NCBI GenBank assembly: GCA_005788815.1
Contig: SYAZ01000023.1
Coordinates: 1 to 35,536, forward strand
Direction: 5' to 3'
DNA length: 35,536 nucleotides
Source: Actinomycetota bacterium
GTDB taxonomy: Bacteria > Actinomycetota > Acidimicrobiia > Acidimicrobiales > Ilumatobacteraceae
Part shown: piece by piece, positions 2,778-9,751 of the stretch
How positions within the stretch are numbered: position 1 is the first letter of the stretch
Layout: each line of letters starts with the position of its first letter
Notes under the pieces: model-generated
The model's database searches: none
What the model was told of the DNA's origin: nothing
Seen by the model: only the letters and a program-made list of their open reading frames with translations
Program-made: the position numbers and the translations under genes

Positions 2778-5262
2778 TTCTCTAGACAACTCTGGGCTTC
2801 CCATTGAGGAAGCCATCTCTCCACTTCGTGATGCTCTTTCCACGCGACGTCACTGTGTTCTCGTTGCACCACCCGGTGCGGGTAAAACCACCCTTGTGCC
2901 GCTACGTCTACTGAATGAAACATGGCTGAATGGCAAGCGCATTGTGATGCTTGAACCACGGCGACTTGCTGCACGCGCCGCAGCCCAACGCATGGCGCAT
3001 CTTCTTGGTGAATCCGTTGGTGACACGGTGGGATTTCAAACGCGCGATGAACGACGCATTGGTGCATCGACCCGCATTGAAGTTGTCACTGAAGGCATCT
3101 TGACGAGGCGTTTACAAAACGACCCAACACTTGAGGGAACAGGTCTTGTCATCTTTGACGAAGTGCACGAACGCAATGTTCCTACCGACCTCGGCTTGGC
3201 GTTTCTTCTCGATGCAATCAAGACTTTCGATTCTGACATGAAAATTCTGGCCATGTCGGCAACTGCCCAGGCCGAATTGTTTTCGCATGTCCTCGCCGAC
3301 TCCTTAGGAGACGCTTCCGTTATTACATCTGAAGGCCGCACCTTCCCAGTCGACATCAGATACATACCGAAGCAACGCAACGAACGTTTAGAGAACTCAA
3401 TCGGAGAAGCAGTTCTGCAAGCACTACGCAACGACGATGGAGACATTCTTGTGTTTCTCCCAGGTATTGGCGAGATAAACCGCGCTCAAGGTGTTTTGCA
3501 AGATCGCACTCCACCACATGTAGACATCGTGCGATTAGCAGGTGCACTCCCCTTCGCTGAACAAGATGCAGCTCTGCGACCAAGTGCATCGGGGCGACGG
3601 CGCGTGGTTCTCTCTACAGACATTGCCGAGACATCGCTCACTGTTGAAGGTGTACACATTGTGATTGATGCCGGCATTGCTCGTGTACCGCGCCTAGATG
3701 CACGCACTGGCCTTACTGAACTACTCACAGTTACTTCGTCTCGTGCGTCCGCAGATCAACGCAGTGGCCGTGCTGGTCGTGTACGCGAAGGTGTGGCATA
3801 CCGAATGTGGGGTCGCATTGAAGACTCCACACGACTTGCTCACTTGCCTGCTGAAATCACACAAGTTGATCTTTGTTCGGTGGCCCTCGAGATTGCTGCG
3901 TGGGGAACGCCCATTGCTGATCTTCTGTTTCTTGACGAACTCCCTGAACGCTCCTTGCGACTAGCCCACGAAACACTCGCCATGTTGCAATTACTTGACA
4001 ACAATGGAGCAATCACAAAATTGGGTCGCGAGGTACTTGCGTTGCCGCTTCACCCACGCCTCGGCACCATGGTTGCAAGAAACCGCGACAACGATGTTCA
4101 CGGCTGGATTGCATGCATCCTTGCTGCACTTCTCGAAGAACGCGACATTATGCGTGGAAAACCTGACTCGCTACCCACAGACATTGCAATGCGCGCCGGC
4201 ATTGTTGTCGGACTTACTCACCACGATGTCGCAGACCGTGCATCAACACGTCGCGTCATCGATGCGGCAAAAGACATCGCTCGTCGTTCTCGTGTTTCAA
4301 CCGATGCGCACCTATCACTCGACATTCTGGATGCGATGTGTGGTCCCATACTTCTCGCGGCATATCCCGACCGTCTCGCGATGCGCCGCTCTTCTCCGGG
4401 GCAGTTTGTGATGCGCAGTGGCGGGGGGGTCAATATGGATTCAAAAGATTCCATAGCCAAGGATCAGTTCATTGTGGCTGCAGACATCGATGCCCAGCGT
4501 TCTGTTTCACGCCTACGACGTGGCGCAGCAGTTGACATTGAATTCATAGCGCCAGTGCTCGGTGATGATGTTGAAGTCGAGTCGTATCTGTTGTGGGATA
4601 AACAGCGAGATGATTTAGTGCAACGCGTTGTGCGCAAAGTTGGCAGTATCCGCATTGACGAACGAGATTTGCAACCAGTTGCATCAGACGAAACAACTGA
4701 AGCACTGCTTGAACGAGTACGCGCCACCAACTTGGCCGTCCTCGATGGTGGCGCGTCAACAGCATTTCGCCAGCGAGTTGCATTTCTTCGCCACCATCTT
4801 GGTGATGAATGGCCAGACACATCGCAAACACACCTTCTTGCCACCATGCACGAATGGCTACTTCCCTATCTCAGTGGCGCAACAAGCCGCCGTGACCTTG
4901 CCGCCGTCGACATCACCATGGTGTTGCAATCACAACTTGGGTGGGATGCAAGCTCTACCCTCAACTCTCTTGCACCCACTGAATTTGAGCCACCTCGCGG
5001 CAAGCCAGTCACTATCAACTACGCCGAACCAACAGCTCCCACCATTGCGATTCGCGTCCAGCATTTGTTTGGCGTCACCACACACCCCAGTGTCTTAAAC
5101 GGTGCCGTGCCATTACGCATTCAGTTGCTGTCGCCCGCTGACCGACCCATTCAGATCACCGCAGACCTGCCTGGCTTCTGGACAGGCTCGTGGAGCGAGG
5201 TGCGCAAAGAGATGGCTGGGCGCTACCCCAAGCACGATTGGCCCATTAACCCCAGCGCATAG
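2770..5262 (+). CDS. hrpB: ATP-dependent helicase HrpB
   Basis: This is a DEAH-box-type superfamily 2 helicase of the HrpB family, about 830 residues from the proposed start, near the usual 810-840. Motifs are in order: Walker A GAGKTT at about 36-41, DEVH at 130-133, SAT at 163-165 and QRSGRAGR at about 330-337. The helicase-associated domain and the HrpB-specific C-terminal region follow, ending in the typical PKHDWP-like tail. The in-frame reading frame extends upstream inside the thioredoxin-fold gene. TTG at 2770 is the likeliest start because it precedes Walker A by the usual distance and overlaps the upstream stop, but it lacks a clear ribosome site. HrpB acts on nucleic acid in the cytoplasm; its physiological substrate is poorly known in most bacteria. 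A run of seven G at 4433-4439 lies inside the gene. Confidence 0.93.
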   Translation: MSNSLDNSGLPIEEAISPLRDALSTRRHCVLVAPPGAGKTTLVPLRLLNETWLNGKRIVMLEPRRLAARAAAQRMAHLLGESVGDTVGFQTRDERRIGASTRIEVVTEGILTRRLQNDPTLEGTGLVIFDEVHERNVPTDLGLAFLLDAIKTFDSDMKILAMSATAQAELFSHVLADSLGDASVITSEGRTFPVDIRYIPKQRNERLENSIGEAVLQALRNDDGDILVFLPGIGEINRAQGVLQDRTPPHVDIVRLAGALPFAEQDAALRPSASGRRRVVLSTDIAETSLTVEGVHIVIDAGIARVPRLDARTGLTELLTVTSSRASADQRSGRAGRVREGVAYRMWGRIEDSTRLAHLPAEITQVDLCSVALEIAAWGTPIADLLFLDELPERSLRLAHETLAMLQLLDNNGAITKLGREVLALPLHPRLGTMVARNRDNDVHGWIACILAALLEERDIMRGKPDSLPTDIAMRAGIVVGLTHHDVADRASTRRVIDAAKDIARRSRVSTDAHLSLDILDAMCGPILLAAYPDRLAMRRSSPGQFVMRSGGGVNMDSKDSIAKDQFIVAADIDAQRSVSRLRRGAAVDIEFIAPVLGDDVEVESYLLWDKQRDDLVQRVVRKVGSIRIDERDLQPVASDETTEALLERVRATNLAVLDGGASTAFRQRVAFLRHHLGDEWPDTSQTHLLATMHEWLLPYLSGATSRRDLAAVDITMVLQSQLGWDASSTLNSLAPTEFEPPRGKPVTINYAEPTAPTIAIRVQHLFGVTTHPSVLNGAVPLRIQLLSPADRPIQITADLPGFWTGSWSEVRKEMAGRYPKHDWPINPSA

Positions 5263-5296
5263 GGCGTAACACTGCTCTTCGTTCTAGCCTGAGAGC

Positions 5297-6937
5297 ATGC
5301 CTGAGTTTTCCTTTTCAGAGATGTTCCCCCTTGGCCCCGACACCACTGAGTATCGACTCATCGGCAAAGACGGCGTTAGCGAAGTCACGACGCCACTTGG
5401 CACATTCCTGAAAGTGGAACCAGAGGCCATCACGCTTCTCACAGAAACTGCAATGCGAGATATCGCACACTTGTTACGCACAGATCACTTGAAGCAACTA
5501 AAGAAAATTCTTGATGACCCAGAAGCCAGCGCAAACGACAAGTTTGTTGCACTTGACTTGTTAAAGAATGCAAGCATCGCAGCCGGTGGCGTATTGCCAA
5601 TGTGTCAAGACACCGGAACAGCCATCGTCAAGGGTAAAAAAGGCCAGTTTGTTATGACGGGCGGCGGCGACGAAGAAGCCATCGCACGAGGCGTGTTCAA
5701 CACATACCAAACAAGCAACTTGCGCTACAGCCAGATGGCACCCATCACCATGTACGAAGAGAAGAACACGGGAAACAATCTTCCTGCTGAAATCAAAATC
5801 TCAGCAGTCGACGGTGACTCATACAAGTTCTTGTTTATGGCAAAAGGCGGCGGTTCCGCCAACAAGAGTTACTTGTTCCAAGAAACAAAAGCGTTGCTCA
5901 ACGAAAAAGCACTACTTCCCTGGGTCTTTGAAAAAATGATCACACTTGGCACTGCTGCGTGCCCGCCATACCACCTTGCAATTGTCATTGGTGGCACGTC
6001 GGCTGAACAAGCAGTGGAAACAGCAAAACTTGCAAGTGCTCATTACCTTGATTCATTGCCAACAACTGGCAGTGAGAGCGGCCACGCATTCCGAGATCTT
6101 GATCTTGAACAAAAGGTTCTGAAACTTTCGCAAGAAACTGGCATTGGTGCTCAGTTCGGCGGCAAGTATTTCTGCCATGACGTTCGCATTGTTCGCCTAC
6201 CTCGCCATGGCGCAAGCTGTCCAGTTTCGTTTGCGGTGTCCTGCAGTGCTGACCGCCAAGCAGTTGGAAAAATCACACGCGATGGCATCTTTCTTGAAGC
6301 GCTCGAGACAGACCCTGCACAGTTTCTGCCAGAAATCACTCATGAAGACTTGAGTGAAGAAGTAGTTCATATTGACCTCACGCAACCTATGGACACCATC
6401 CGTGCCACTTTGTCGAAGTACCCAGTGAAGACACGCGTGATGTTGACAGGACCAATGGTTGTTGCACGCGACATTGCACACGCAAAACTGAAGGAACGCC
6501 TCGACTCCGGTAACGGATTGCCGCAATACATGAAAGATCACTGCGTGTATTACGCAGGTCCGGCAAAGACTCCCACGGGAATGGCGTCGGGTTCTTTCGG
6601 GCCCACAACAGCAGGACGCATGGATAGCTACGTTGCAGAGTTTCAAGTAGCTGGCGGCAGTTTTGTGATGTTGGCGAAAGGCAATCGCTCGCGACAAGTC
6701 ACGGATGCCTGCAAGACTTACGGCGGGTTCTATTTAGGTTCTATAGGTGGTCCAGCGGCACGGCTCGCTCAGGACTGCATCACCAAAGTTGAAGTTCTGG
6801 AGTATGAAGAACTCGGCATGGAAGCCGTGTGGAAGATCGAAGTTCAAGATTTCCCTGCGTTCATAGTGGTGGATGACAAGGGAAATGACTTTTTTGATCA
6901 GGTGGGCGCAACAGGCACACCCGTTCACCTTCACTAA
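5297..6937 (+). CDS. fumA: Fumarate hydratase, class I (iron-sulfur)
   Basis: This is a full-length (546-residue) single-chain class I fumarase, interconverting fumarate and L-malate in the citric-acid cycle. The three cysteines expected to bind the [4Fe-4S] cluster are present and spaced as in E. coli FumA: Cys103 in LPMCQDTGT, Cys222 in TAACPPYH and Cys316 in AVSCSADRQ. The C-terminal domain includes the family's [11 protein letters not shown] stretch. The enzyme is cytoplasmic and, by family knowledge, oxygen- and iron-sensitive. The start ATG is 34 bases after hrpB and its ribosome site is weak. The gene is followed by a separate promoter for the exported protein, so the transcription unit probably ends here, although no strong terminator hairpin was seen. 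A role for other hydroxy-acids, as in some family members, cannot be excluded. Confidence 0.95.
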
Positions 6938-6966
6938 GCCCCCAGTCGGCCTCTCCCCCTGATCGT

Positions 6967-6995
6967 TTGACAAACTTTTAATAGTTGAATACTAT
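6967..6995 (+). promoter_or_regulatory. Sigma70-type promoter of the exported protein gene
   Basis: A perfect -35 box TTGACA (6967-6972) is followed after exactly 17 bases by TACTAT (6990-6995) as -10. The predicted transcript starts near 7002 and leads to an AAGGGGAA ribosome site (about 7022-7029) before the ATG at 7033. It is the best promoter-like sequence noticed in the window. Confidence 0.7.
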
Positions 6996-6999
6996 TCAA
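6985..6999. promoter_or_regulatory. Palindromic operator-like site overlapping the -10 box
   Basis: TTGAATACTATTCAA is a perfect palindrome with 7-base arms around a central C. It covers the -10 element and reaches the predicted transcription start, where a bound dimeric repressor would block RNA polymerase. The length, AT-richness and symmetry are like MarR-type operators, though the family is inferred. A second, overlapping inverted repeat (AATAGT 6980-6985 with ACTATT 6991-6996) shares the same bases. Confidence 0.55.
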
Positions 7000-7032
7000 G
7001 TCAACCGATCTCGACGATTCTAAGGGGAATTC

Positions 7033-7806
7033 ATGAAACTTCGCACTCTTACAGTTTTGGCTGGCGCACTAGGTCTGCTCATCACTGTTCCATCACCAGT
7101 AAATGCTGCGGCCAAGCAAACCGTCAAGGTCTACATGACCGGTGATTGCGCAGACGGTCAAGCAGTAGAAGGCATCGACGAGGACGACTGTGAACTCACA
7201 GTCAACCTCACCCCAAAGACATCACGCCGTTCCGCTGTGCTTGAAGTTGCATACGATCCCGATGAGCCAGAATGGGAAGAACTCGATGCAGGAAAGACCC
7301 AAAAAGGCCGTCTTGTATTTGATGCGCCAGCAGTTGACGAAGACGACTACTGGATGGATGGTGTAGTGCTCTATCGCGTCACAGTGAAGAAGTCTGGCGT
7401 CAATAAGAAATTCGTCTCTCGCACCTACAAAGTTGCATACACCTCAGCAGACGCGGCAGAAAATGACGAAGACTTGCTAGAAGACCTAGAAGAAGAAACT
7501 CCTGAGGAAAAAGAGTTTAACGAACAAATGGATAGGGCTCAGGAGAACAACAAAAAGTTCAACCCACAGGCCGGCAGTGGTTCTACATCACAATCGATTA
7601 GTGATCGCTCTGGCAAGATCAACCAAGCGTGTGGCTCCATTGGGATGGCCAAAACAAAATGTGATTCGGTTATCGCCGCGAAGAATGGCCTGGATGCTCT
7701 ATCAGTACTTGGCGGAGACGCAGATCGATTCTGTCGCGCAGTATCTCGAATCGCTGTGGGCGTTGAGATGTCATGCAAAGACGTCATGCCAAAACTGTTT
7801 GGCTAA
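7033..7806 (+). CDS. Exported acidic protein with six cysteines, function unknown
   Basis: I do not recognise this 257-residue protein. It begins with a clear Sec signal peptide: Lys/Arg at 2-4, a hydrophobic core at about 6-20 and an Ala-rich cleavage site after VNA (residue 25). The mature part has three sections. The first is a probable beta-rich domain (about 28-138) with Cys39 and Cys53. The second is a strongly acidic, helix-prone linker (about 140-175, many Glu/Asp). The third is a C-terminal section with Cys200, Cys210, Cys234 and Cys248. The six cysteines suggest up to three disulfides outside the cytoplasm. There is no membrane anchor after the signal, no lipobox and no catalytic motif seen. 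It has its own promoter and a palindromic operator-like site, so expression is probably switched. Metal (for example calcium) binding by the acidic region is only a guess. Confidence 0.8.
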   Translation: MKLRTLTVLAGALGLLITVPSPVNAAAKQTVKVYMTGDCADGQAVEGIDEDDCELTVNLTPKTSRRSAVLEVAYDPDEPEWEELDAGKTQKGRLVFDAPAVDEDDYWMDGVVLYRVTVKKSGVNKKFVSRTYKVAYTSADAAENDEDLLEDLEEETPEEKEFNEQMDRAQENNKKFNPQAGSGSTSQSISDRSGKINQACGSIGMAKTKCDSVIAAKNGLDALSVLGGDADRFCRAVSRIAVGVEMSCKDVMPKLFG

Positions 7807-7813
7807 AGAGTTT

Positions 7814-8887
7814 TTAGTCGGCTACAAAGCCAGGCCAGTTTCCCATATACCCAATAAAGGCATCGCTGAGTCCTTCTGCGCGTAGCACTCCACGTGTGAC
7901 TGGCAGAGTGCGCATTGCGAAACTTGAATCATGTGATTGCAATGGAAAATCGTGATTCGTAACTGCGGCACGACCGATTGCAACCATATCTGCTCCTGCA
8001 TCTATTGCGCGTTGTGCGTCTGCTGTGCTGTACAACTTGCCCGCTACCGCTAACCGTGTATTGCCTCTTTCAAGATTCGCAAAAATATCAATCAACTGTT
8101 GACCGGCAAAATCTTCGTCGGCGGCTTCTTTGAAACAGTCCCACAGCGACATGTCAATCATGTCGACCTTGTCCGTGTCAATCAAGCGGCCAAAGATGTC
8201 GACTATCTCATGTGTTTTCATACCGAATCGTTCAGGCGACAACCGAATAGCAACTGCAAAATCTTTGGCACAACGTGCGCGAATACCATCGATAATGTCG
8301 AATATCACGCGCGAACGATTCTCTAGTGAACCACCGTATTGATCGCTGCGAACGTTTAATTCTGCATTCAGGAACTGGCACAACACATAATCATGAGCAC
8401 CGTGAAGTTCTACTCCGTTGTATCCAGCCTTCTCGCTACGTACAGCCGCCTCAATGAAAGCCTCCACCATCGCTTCCACTTCTGCAGTGGTCATTGCCCT
8501 AGCGCCTGCTTTTTCATCATCGCCTGAACTCACAGGTGTTGTACCAATGAGGTCGGCCGGCGAACGACGACCCGCATGATGCAGTTGAACATACGACACG
8601 CTGTCGTTTTTGTTAATGGCCGTAGCTAACCGAGTGAGACCAGCCAGATGCTCATCACCAAAGCAACCCAGTTGACCTGCAAAGCCCTGGCCAATAGCTT
8701 GAACGTGTGAGGCACATGTCATGGTGAGCCCAAAACCACCTTCGGCGCGCTTCACCAACCACGTGAATTCTTCTTCAGACAATGTGCCATCGGGATTGCT
8801 TTGTTGATTAGTGAGCGGAGCCAACATGAATCTGTTTTTCATGGCCGGACCATGAGCAAACGAGACTGAGTCAAAAAGTGAAGTCAT
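7814..8887 (-). CDS. NADH:flavin oxidoreductase / Old Yellow Enzyme family
   Basis: This 357-residue FMN-binding TIM-barrel enzyme is of the Old Yellow Enzyme family. Visible motifs are the N-terminal NRFMLAPLT strand, QLHHAGR at 101-107, HGAH at 162-165 (the paired residues that bind the substrate carbonyl) followed by Tyr167, and QYGGSLENRSR at about 183-193. AIGRAAV near the C-terminus is the usual phosphate-binding end of the barrel. It has no C-terminal Fe-S/FAD extension, so it is a short, single-domain ene-reductase type rather than a 2,4-dienoyl-CoA reductase fusion. It probably reduces activated C=C bonds using NAD(P)H in the cytoplasm. It is the last gene of a long minus-strand block, 33 bases after an enoyl-CoA hydratase gene, which hints at unsaturated acid or CoA-ester substrates. 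It converges with the exported protein gene (7-base gap). Confidence 0.9.
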   Translation of the reverse strand: MTSLFDSVSFAHGPAMKNRFMLAPLTNQQSNPDGTLSEEEFTWLVKRAEGGFGLTMTCASHVQAIGQGFAGQLGCFGDEHLAGLTRLATAINKNDSVSYVQLHHAGRRSPADLIGTTPVSSGDDEKAGARAMTTAEVEAMVEAFIEAAVRSEKAGYNGVELHGAHDYVLCQFLNAELNVRSDQYGGSLENRSRVIFDIIDGIRARCAKDFAVAIRLSPERFGMKTHEIVDIFGRLIDTDKVDMIDMSLWDCFKEAADEDFAGQQLIDIFANLERGNTRLAVAGKLYSTADAQRAIDAGADMVAIGRAAVTNHDFPLQSHDSSFAMRTLPVTRGVLRAEGLSDAFIGYMGNWPGFVAD

Positions 8888-8920
8888 ACATACAGCATGA
8901 CCGTTCAGATGTGTCGTGCC

Positions 8921-9751
8921 TTAATCGGAGGCAGAGTCGTTGATTTCGTTGACTAGTGCACCAAGGCGTAATTCGCCTTCACGTGTTTGCCCACCGCGAG
9001 CCAAGAAATTTTTCATGGCCTTTCGGCTCGCATCAAGGTGTAGCAAACCATTGAACTCACCTGCTTCAGCTAGCAGATCCTCCACCACGTGGTCGTCACT
9101 ACGCAATATAGAACGCTTCGCAGCCTGCACTGCTTCCACTGGGAACGTTGCAATTCTCCGTGCAAGCGCATGTGCGTGAGCAGACGGATTATCGACAACC
9201 CTGTTCACCCAGCCCCACTCGTGTGCGGTCTGAGCATCAATGTCTTCGCAACCAAGAATGACTTCCATTGCCCGCGAACGACCCAGTAGACGAGATAGGC
9301 GAACTGTTCCACTGCCGCCTGGAATGATTCCTAATGCAACCTCAGGCTGGCTAAACACAGCATTCGGGGAAGCAAAGCGCATATCCATACTGAGAGTCAA
9401 TTCACTGCCACCGCCACCAACCCGACCGTCAATGACGCTGATTGTTGGTTTTGGCATTGTGCGGAAGTTCTCGCACATCTGATGAAATTCATTGAGTTCC
9501 GTCGGTGCTGGTCGATGTGTTGGCAAATGCAAGATAAGTGACACATCGAAATGAGCAATAAAGAATTCAGGGTTAGCCGACTCAACAACAACTACTCGGA
9601 CATTGTCGTCATCTCGTAACTGCGATGACAAACGCGACAACTCTGGGTACAACTTGAGATCAAACAAATTGATCGGCGGGTTGTCAATAATTACAGAGGC
9701 GACACCATCTTGAAGTTCTACCCGCAGAGTTTCAAAAGTACCATAATCCAT
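8921..9751 (-). CDS. Enoyl-CoA hydratase/isomerase (crotonase) family protein
   Basis: This is a 276-residue crotonase-fold protein. The oxyanion-hole region GRVGGGGSEL is at about 109-118. Glu117 (SEL) and Glu137 (QPE) are 20 residues apart, as are the two catalytic glutamates of classical enoyl-CoA hydratase, so water addition to an enoyl-CoA is plausible. The first CoA-binding loop (FFIAHFD, 63-69) departs from the usual AGADL, and a loop rich in Pro/His (75-83) follows. The substrate may therefore differ from short-chain beta-oxidation intermediates. It begins two bases after the LLM oxidoreductase stop, so it belongs to that operon, and precedes the Old Yellow Enzyme gene. Together these look like a small CoA or unsaturated-acid redox cassette. 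An isomerase or decarboxylase role is possible. Confidence 0.88.
   Translation of the reverse strand: MDYGTFETLRVELQDGVASVIIDNPPINLFDLKLYPELSRLSSQLRDDDNVRVVVVESANPEFFIAHFDVSLILHLPTHRPAPTELNEFHQMCENFRTMPKPTISVIDGRVGGGGSELTLSMDMRFASPNAVFSQPEVALGIIPGGSGTVRLSRLLGRSRAMEVILGCEDIDAQTAHEWGWVNRVVDNPSAHAHALARRIATFPVEAVQAAKRSILRSDDHVVEDLLAEAGEFNGLLHLDASRKAMKNFLARGGQTREGELRLGALVNEINDSASD

Follow-up and report, generated by a model that had tools for sequence, protein, structure and literature searches.

A probably exported Ig-like protein of Ilumatobacteraceae with a candidate cation-binding end and a tail open to exchange

The locus raised the question of what is encoded between a fumarase gene and a convergent oxidoreductase gene in an actinobacterial contig. 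The window, the whole stretch of 35,536 nucleotides that was analysed, originates from a genome assembly of 1.53 Mb on 112 contigs with 68% completeness. The ORF at 7033-7806 on the forward strand starts with ATG and comprises 257 amino acids. A ribosome-site-like AAGGGGA was read by eye upstream of it at 7022-7028. Its neighbours are the fumarase gene (5297-6937) and the gene of an NADH:flavin oxidoreductase (7814-8887), which is convergent and ends 7 bp past the stop codon. Ten relatives carry the gene at the corresponding locus, so a chance ORF is ruled out. An Rfam scan of 5200-9000 gave no match. The following parts of the protein were distinguished:

7033..7107, forward strand: Sec-like signal peptide, residues 1-25, from the sequence, with the cleavage after VNA placed by eye
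7114..7446, forward strand: predicted Ig-like beta-sandwich, residues 28-138, with Cys39 and Cys53 (AF2 model, Foldseek/VIA and 29-member alignment)
7447..7596, forward strand: acidic linker, residues 139-188 (AF2 model and charge count), mostly absent in the relative G014
7597..7803, forward strand: helical four-cysteine C module, residues 189-257 (models, alignment A2 and module map)

The first-pass annotation had described an exported protein of no assignable family. This stands against Pfam, NCBIfam and the PDB sequences: neither a usable match nor a confident match to a known family with assigned function appeared there, and an Ig-like class of fold can be assigned to the N domain. Pfam gave no significant match in 20 members. 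FlgD_ig and Big_3_5, which belong to the same fold class, were matched weakly by one of the 20 members each (E 0.0065 and 0.018, not significant) and the window protein itself had no match to them. NCBIfam matches to HvfA and DjlA were far below the cut-offs. The N-domain profile A3 retrieved only de novo TIM barrels from the PDB, with a best E of 3.3e-6, and these were attributed to composition. A tblastn search of the window protein against 50,697 phage records gave no match, and none of the papers listed for exported Ig-like proteins and adhesins of Ilumatobacteraceae dealt with this family.

A search with the window protein matched 17 of 32 genomes of its genus. Profile A3 at E 0.001 matched 24 of 221 genomes of the bacterial family, namely 17 of the own genus, six of g2 and one of g6. 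One further genus member, G021, showed the tail only, since its contig begins within the gene. The spread in Acidimicrobiia, for which a survey had been proposed earlier, is narrower than the class, covering three of the 27 genera of one family and, in the order, 6 of 397 genomes or 4 of 397 once two matches judged to be chance were removed. In the phylum sample the window's own genome was the single match among 296, and absences throughout are not firm because many genomes are incomplete. N-domain matches in G348 and G064 (44-45 of 110 positions) lay in composition-biased frames of 131 and 135 residues with no signal and were judged chance. Left out of the N-domain counts were G028:C50 (23 of 110 positions) and G003:C5 (stop inside). 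C-module matches were rejected in G028 (E 0.06), where the frame was read and proved unrelated, and in G031:C6 (E 0.035), which has a stop inside. By sequence, the protein is real, belongs to no known family and has been found so far in one actinobacterial family.

The N-terminus of the window protein is signal-like by eye, as the first-pass annotation had stated, and all 29 collected members likewise begin with a signal-like segment. Four members of a sister genus (L014, L124, L125 and L127) carry lipoboxes, with homologue sequences LLSAC, VLASC and LLAAC at the signal end, which places the domain outside the membrane. At the corresponding position of the window protein the lipobox cysteine is absent and VNA-A is found instead. 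Judged from these sequences, the window protein is almost certainly exported, and the proposed envelope or extracellular placement agrees with both the signal-like starts and the lipoboxes.

For the fold of the N domain, an AF2 model was calculated on a 20-row alignment. It reached a mean pLDDT of 80.8, with block means of 82-97 for residues 31-140. Strands A-G were predicted at 30-37, 53-60, 67-73, 82-88, 93-98, 110-118 and 132-137, with a short additional strand at 43-45 within the AB loop. The predicted structure is a seven-strand antiparallel Ig-like sandwich, and the beta-like domain with two cysteines that had been recognised in the first reading is beta in this model too. Cys39 and Cys53 were kept in 29 of 29 aligned members. 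Foldseek and VIA aligned residues 28-140 to many Ig-like domains. The Foldseek matches were generic, starting with nanobodies at E 6.6e-4 and including CBD1 of NCX1 (2dpk, E 3.3e-3, TMq 0.26). VIA gave Z 8.0-9.0 over 89-106 residues at an rmsd of 2.5-3.6, among others for complement C5 (Z 9.0), PorU (Z 8.8) and a family 3 beta-glucosidase (Z 8.6), values little above the level that the tool calls common. The model-based matches therefore fix the fold class and not the family, and an Ig-like N domain is predicted with very high confidence. Five members (L017, L018, L064, L126 and L128) consist of little more than this domain.

The AB, CD and EF loops of an antiparallel Ig sandwich all lie at the same end. 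Their counterparts in the window protein are:

7144..7188, forward strand: AB loop, residues 38-52, acidic (D41, E46, D49-D52), containing Cys39 and followed by Cys53
7252..7275, forward strand: CD loop, residues 74-81, acidic, ending in W81 (29 of 29 members)
7327..7359, forward strand: EF loop, residues 99-109, acidic, with D104

The three loops hold 16 acidic and 0 basic residues (-16), against 9 basic and 0 acidic residues (+9) in BC, DE and FG; the loop-to-end assignment follows strand order and knowledge of the fold. This polarity was reached in 0 of 20000 permutations. The first end carried -5 to -18 and the second +2 to +9 in 20 of 20 aligned members, and the same signs were found in nine of nine further ones, 29 of 29 in all, although the members are related and neither polarity nor residue counts are independent observations. 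Within residues 1-139 of the 20-row alignment, 15 columns were at least 70% D/E, all of them in the AB, CD and EF loops. Of the 20 rows, 18 have a residue at position 46, acidic in each of them, and all 20 are acidic at position 104; in the 29-row alignment the counts were 26 (two Q, one V) and 28 (one S). Acidity could be a general trait of exported proteins in this lineage.

The arrangement resembles that of Calx-beta domains. In the review PMC9820601, the Ca2+-coordinating residues of CBD1 and CBD2 of NCX1 lie on the AB, CD and EF loops, and PMC9820601 and PMC4746289 assign the sites to the C-terminal end of the domain. Shared with these domains are the seven-strand Ig-like sandwich, with the 2dpk match, and the acidic residues in the three loops (PMC9820601 and PMC4746289). 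The acidic residues are a likeness in how the domain may work, read from the sequence. In contrast to Calx-beta and NCX, the window protein is predicted to be exported, is not part of a transporter and carries a conserved cysteine at either end of its AB loop. The Calx-beta profile (PF03160) matched neither the window protein at E 10 nor the 20 members at E 1. Exported Ig-like or cadherin-like domains also occur in the bacterial adhesins BapP and MpAFP RII, for which PMC12153261 and PMC4083281 report or predict Ca2+ binding. Unlike these giant tandem-repeat proteins, the members of the present family are about 150-420 residues long and have one Ig domain, joined in some of them by cysteine modules. 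Repeats of the giant Ca2+-dependent adhesins (Bap/RTX type) were not seen, with one Ig domain in the model and no tandem repeats in the window DNA. By analogy, the acidic end somewhat more probably than not binds a divalent cation of some kind, and Ca2+ in particular would be a plausible ligand at a slightly lower level of confidence.

The linker and the C module follow on the Ig domain. Residues 139-176 comprise 16 D/E and 4 K/R, in keeping with the very acidic linker described before, and were modelled as helices of lower confidence. The C part, for which four cysteines had been noted, was helical in the AF2 model (189-202, 207-214, 219-241 and 248-256) with block means of 90-95 for 191-250. 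The six cysteines are residues 39, 53, 200, 210, 234 and 248, the last four belonging to the C module. Modelled alone, the module reached a pLDDT of 85. Against solved structures its best Foldseek E was 0.71 and its best VIA Z was 4.4, and the VIA rows up to this value were unrelated proteins. Conservation of all six cysteines, a check that had been suggested, held for the N-domain pair throughout, and for the four of the C module in 10 of the 11 fumarase-locus genes, G004 being the exception. G004 has a two-cysteine module instead, a type that also occurs in the genes of G022 and G031 at another locus, in the cut-off G021 gene and in the g2 members L121 and L122. The two-cysteine modules retain the first two cysteines and lack the last two as a pair, a pattern pointing to disulfides C200-C210 and C234-C248. 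This pairing is proposed as a hint from sequence only, because the two module types show weak kinship (hhalign of A2 against A6, probability 40, E 3e-4). Kinship of A2 with A7 (0.2) and of A7 with A6 (0.5) was not supported. The sister-genus lipoproteins L124, L125 and L127 consist of an Ig domain, a second-type four-cysteine module, a linker and a window-type module, and among the collected members from outside the genus only these three hold a clear A2-type module. L024, L025 and L127 extend right up to the end of their DNA, so cysteines missing there are uninformative. Low-complexity linkers with near-exact repeats (such as NNNQGGST, QPGMGGG and QPSSGGS) surround the cysteine modules of L121, L124, L125 and L119, and their copy number is likely to vary.

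The comparison with G014, the nearest relative, separated the tail from the rest of the locus:

7416..7797, forward strand: segment replaced or missing relative to G014, with a sharp loss of DNA identity that is restored at the stop codon

From about 7416 onwards the DNA identity is lost, and it is back at the stop codon. G014 is without 133 bp of the linker and a further 17 bp slightly further on. Amino acid identity and dS were 0.993 and 0.30 for fumarase, 0.92 and 0.46 for the N domain (28-129), 0.66 and 1.75 for the C module and 0.955 and 0.26 for the oxidoreductase, the C module being near-saturated at synonymous sites. The window's gene changes faster than its neighbours. Among the C-module codons with identical residues 24 of 41 differed synonymously, compared with a fraction of 0.17 in the pooled flanks (p 3.3e-9); the N part had 28 of 116 (p 0.055). 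These p values come from 12 chosen pairs of 55 possible and are uncorrected for multiple tests. In the other 11 pairs, the C module exceeded the flanks at p < 0.05 in two (G026/G020 and G009/G020), was below them in one (G026/G009) and did not differ in eight, and the N part exceeded the flanks in three (G026/G002, G026/G013 and G009/G004). The sharp edges of the tail together with its dS of 1.75 against 0.26-0.30 in the flanks indicate an exchange by recombination. As this is clear in the window/G014 pair alone, replacement of the tail is perhaps an occasional event. In principle the assembly could be chimeric, but the two edges fall within a single contig, the reading frame is intact and each flank closely matches the same relative.

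Upstream, two elements were located:

6967..6995, forward strand: predicted promoter with TTGACA at 6967-6972, a 17-bp spacer and TACTAT at 6990-6995 (11 aligned upstream regions)
6985-6999, no strand assigned: dyad TTGAATACTATTCAA over the -10, candidate operator, 7/7 pairs in the window

The dedicated promoter that had been claimed for the gene was supported by footprinting, which favours the elements TTGAYA and TANNNT. TANNNT did not vary among the 11 aligned upstream regions, and the -35 was present in 10 of them, with a gap in G016. At the place of the dyad, 1-5 of 7 pairs formed in the other 10 relatives. When the intergenic region was shuffled by mononucleotides, 55 of 2000 shuffles gave an arm as long, and the dyad was found once in the 68%-complete genome. 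The pattern TTGA-N7-TCAA overlies the -35 in seven of 10 relatives (G026, G009, G014, G013, G002, G020 and G004) and is absent from the upstream regions of G025, G019 and G016. In the window it overlies the -10 instead, as the one occurrence in 35.5 kb. In the eight-member clade, the first 11 spacer columns had a mean identity of 0.86, against 0.63 upstream and 0.62 downstream of the promoter. GAATAnnnTTC over the -10 is common to five of 11 upstream regions. The pattern over the -35 in relatives and the conserved early spacer make an operator in this region possible. They do not prove regulation, because the -35 itself supplies half of the pattern and the members of the clade have a common ancestry.

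Fumarase was found in 28 of the 32 genus genomes. The slot behind it held the window's gene in 11 of the 28, corresponding to 11 of 26 readable slots. Nothing preceded the oxidoreductase in five genomes, an enoyl-CoA hydratase adjoined directly in four, a luciferase-like neighbour was present in two and two slots were unreadable. In four genomes (G001, G008, G012 and G015) in which the window's gene was not found, the slot was filled by a CorA-like gene on the other strand. The G015 copy, the sole slot copy scanned, matched Pfam CorA at E 1.7e-21, and those of G001, G008 and G012 were 57-90% identical to it. The CorA-like gene was recorded on the opposite strand at L098:3148-4146 and in the same slot in L095, L099, L111 and L115. 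Close copies (at least 57% identity) were found only at this fumarase-oxidoreductase slot. Distant family members sit at other loci with varying neighbours (FAD oxidoreductase, nitroreductase, MsrA and unknowns), and no consistent partner gene was seen across the family loci. Short homologues without C module are adjoined by 455-residue proteins at L081:4146-5513 and L082:5952-7319, a possible partner, one of which had a marginal beta-propeller repeat match (E 9.6e-5).

The explanation we favour, tentatively, is an exported Ig-like binding protein that is probably clamped by a cation and has a tail that can be exchanged. After Sec export, the Ig-like domain would be clamped by a Cys39-Cys53 disulfide, a pairing that we infer, and would display the conserved AB, CD and EF carboxylates at one end. 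There they would most likely hold at least one divalent cation, with Ca2+ as the best candidate by comparison with the NCX Calx-beta domains, and the cation would fix the domain end at which the acidic linker exits. This linker would carry the small helical two-disulfide module as a variable, recognition-like part, which recombination could replace with the Ig head left in place. The protein would serve in adhesion or some other surface or matrix interaction; such a binding role may be considered, with some reserve. Tail replacement between close relatives, the faster change of the gene and its occupancy of 11 of 26 readable slots could also result from predation, in which case the protein would be a surface antigen or phage-recognition site with a tail swapped against phages or grazers and the Ig domain only a stalk. 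According to PMC9426551, lake bacterioplankton accumulate nonsynonymous variants in cell-surface modification genes, and its authors tie this to phage, which fits predation as well. Predation leaves the conserved charge polarity unexplained and seems unlikely as the full account; it is compatible with the cation-clamped binding protein.

The polarity itself could serve an electrostatic polymer, the acidic Ig end docking on the next basic end to give head-to-tail fibres that present the tails either on the cell or away from it. Oppositely charged ends in all 29 members, the predicted export and the lipid anchors of relatives suit such fibres, whereas the single Ig domain that the model shows in each chain and the lack of an assembly gene among the neighbours scanned do not. 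Salt bridges alone seldom give stable fibres, and we consider a polymer quite unlikely. Acidic loops and linker, as well as the CorA-like gene in the same slot of four genomes, would suit an extracytoplasmic metal buffer or scavenger rather than a surface-binding protein. Against this, no metal transporter was present among ten neighbours scanned and CorA has no simple link to the gene among the 32 genomes: 18 have the gene (17 via the N domain, G021 via the tail), CorA alone is present in four, 10 lack both at the thresholds applied, and two of the 18 (G025 and G019) combine the gene with a distant CorA elsewhere. CorA as functional counterpart of the window's gene is not supported by this distribution, and a metal buffer is improbable. 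A constant N part with an exchanged C part is also the layout of a secreted polymorphic-toxin-like effector with a toxic tail. The tails of this family are small cysteine modules, repeats or absent, with no catalytic-looking motif by eye, 20 members lack a significant Pfam match, and no immunity gene follows downstream, as the oxidoreductase gene ends so close to the stop codon; a toxin is hardly credible.

The window protein likely belongs to the exported Ig-like proteins with likely cation-binding loops. Beyond this, it is conceivable, and at present rather doubtful, that the family is an undescribed, lineage-restricted and exported one in which a cation-clamped Ig head stays constant and short disulfide-stabilised tail cassettes, of a fold for which no solved relative was found, are exchanged by recombination, possibly between chromosomal loci. 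It would then represent a small diversity-generating surface display of aquatic actinobacteria. A formerly 'unknown' ORF is now a defined family with two testable claims: the conserved acidic end should bind a divalent cation, and the tail should be exchangeable while the rest of the locus stays. If true, this would provide a surface-protein handle on poorly known actinobacteria and a view of how they vary what phages, grazers and neighbours meet.
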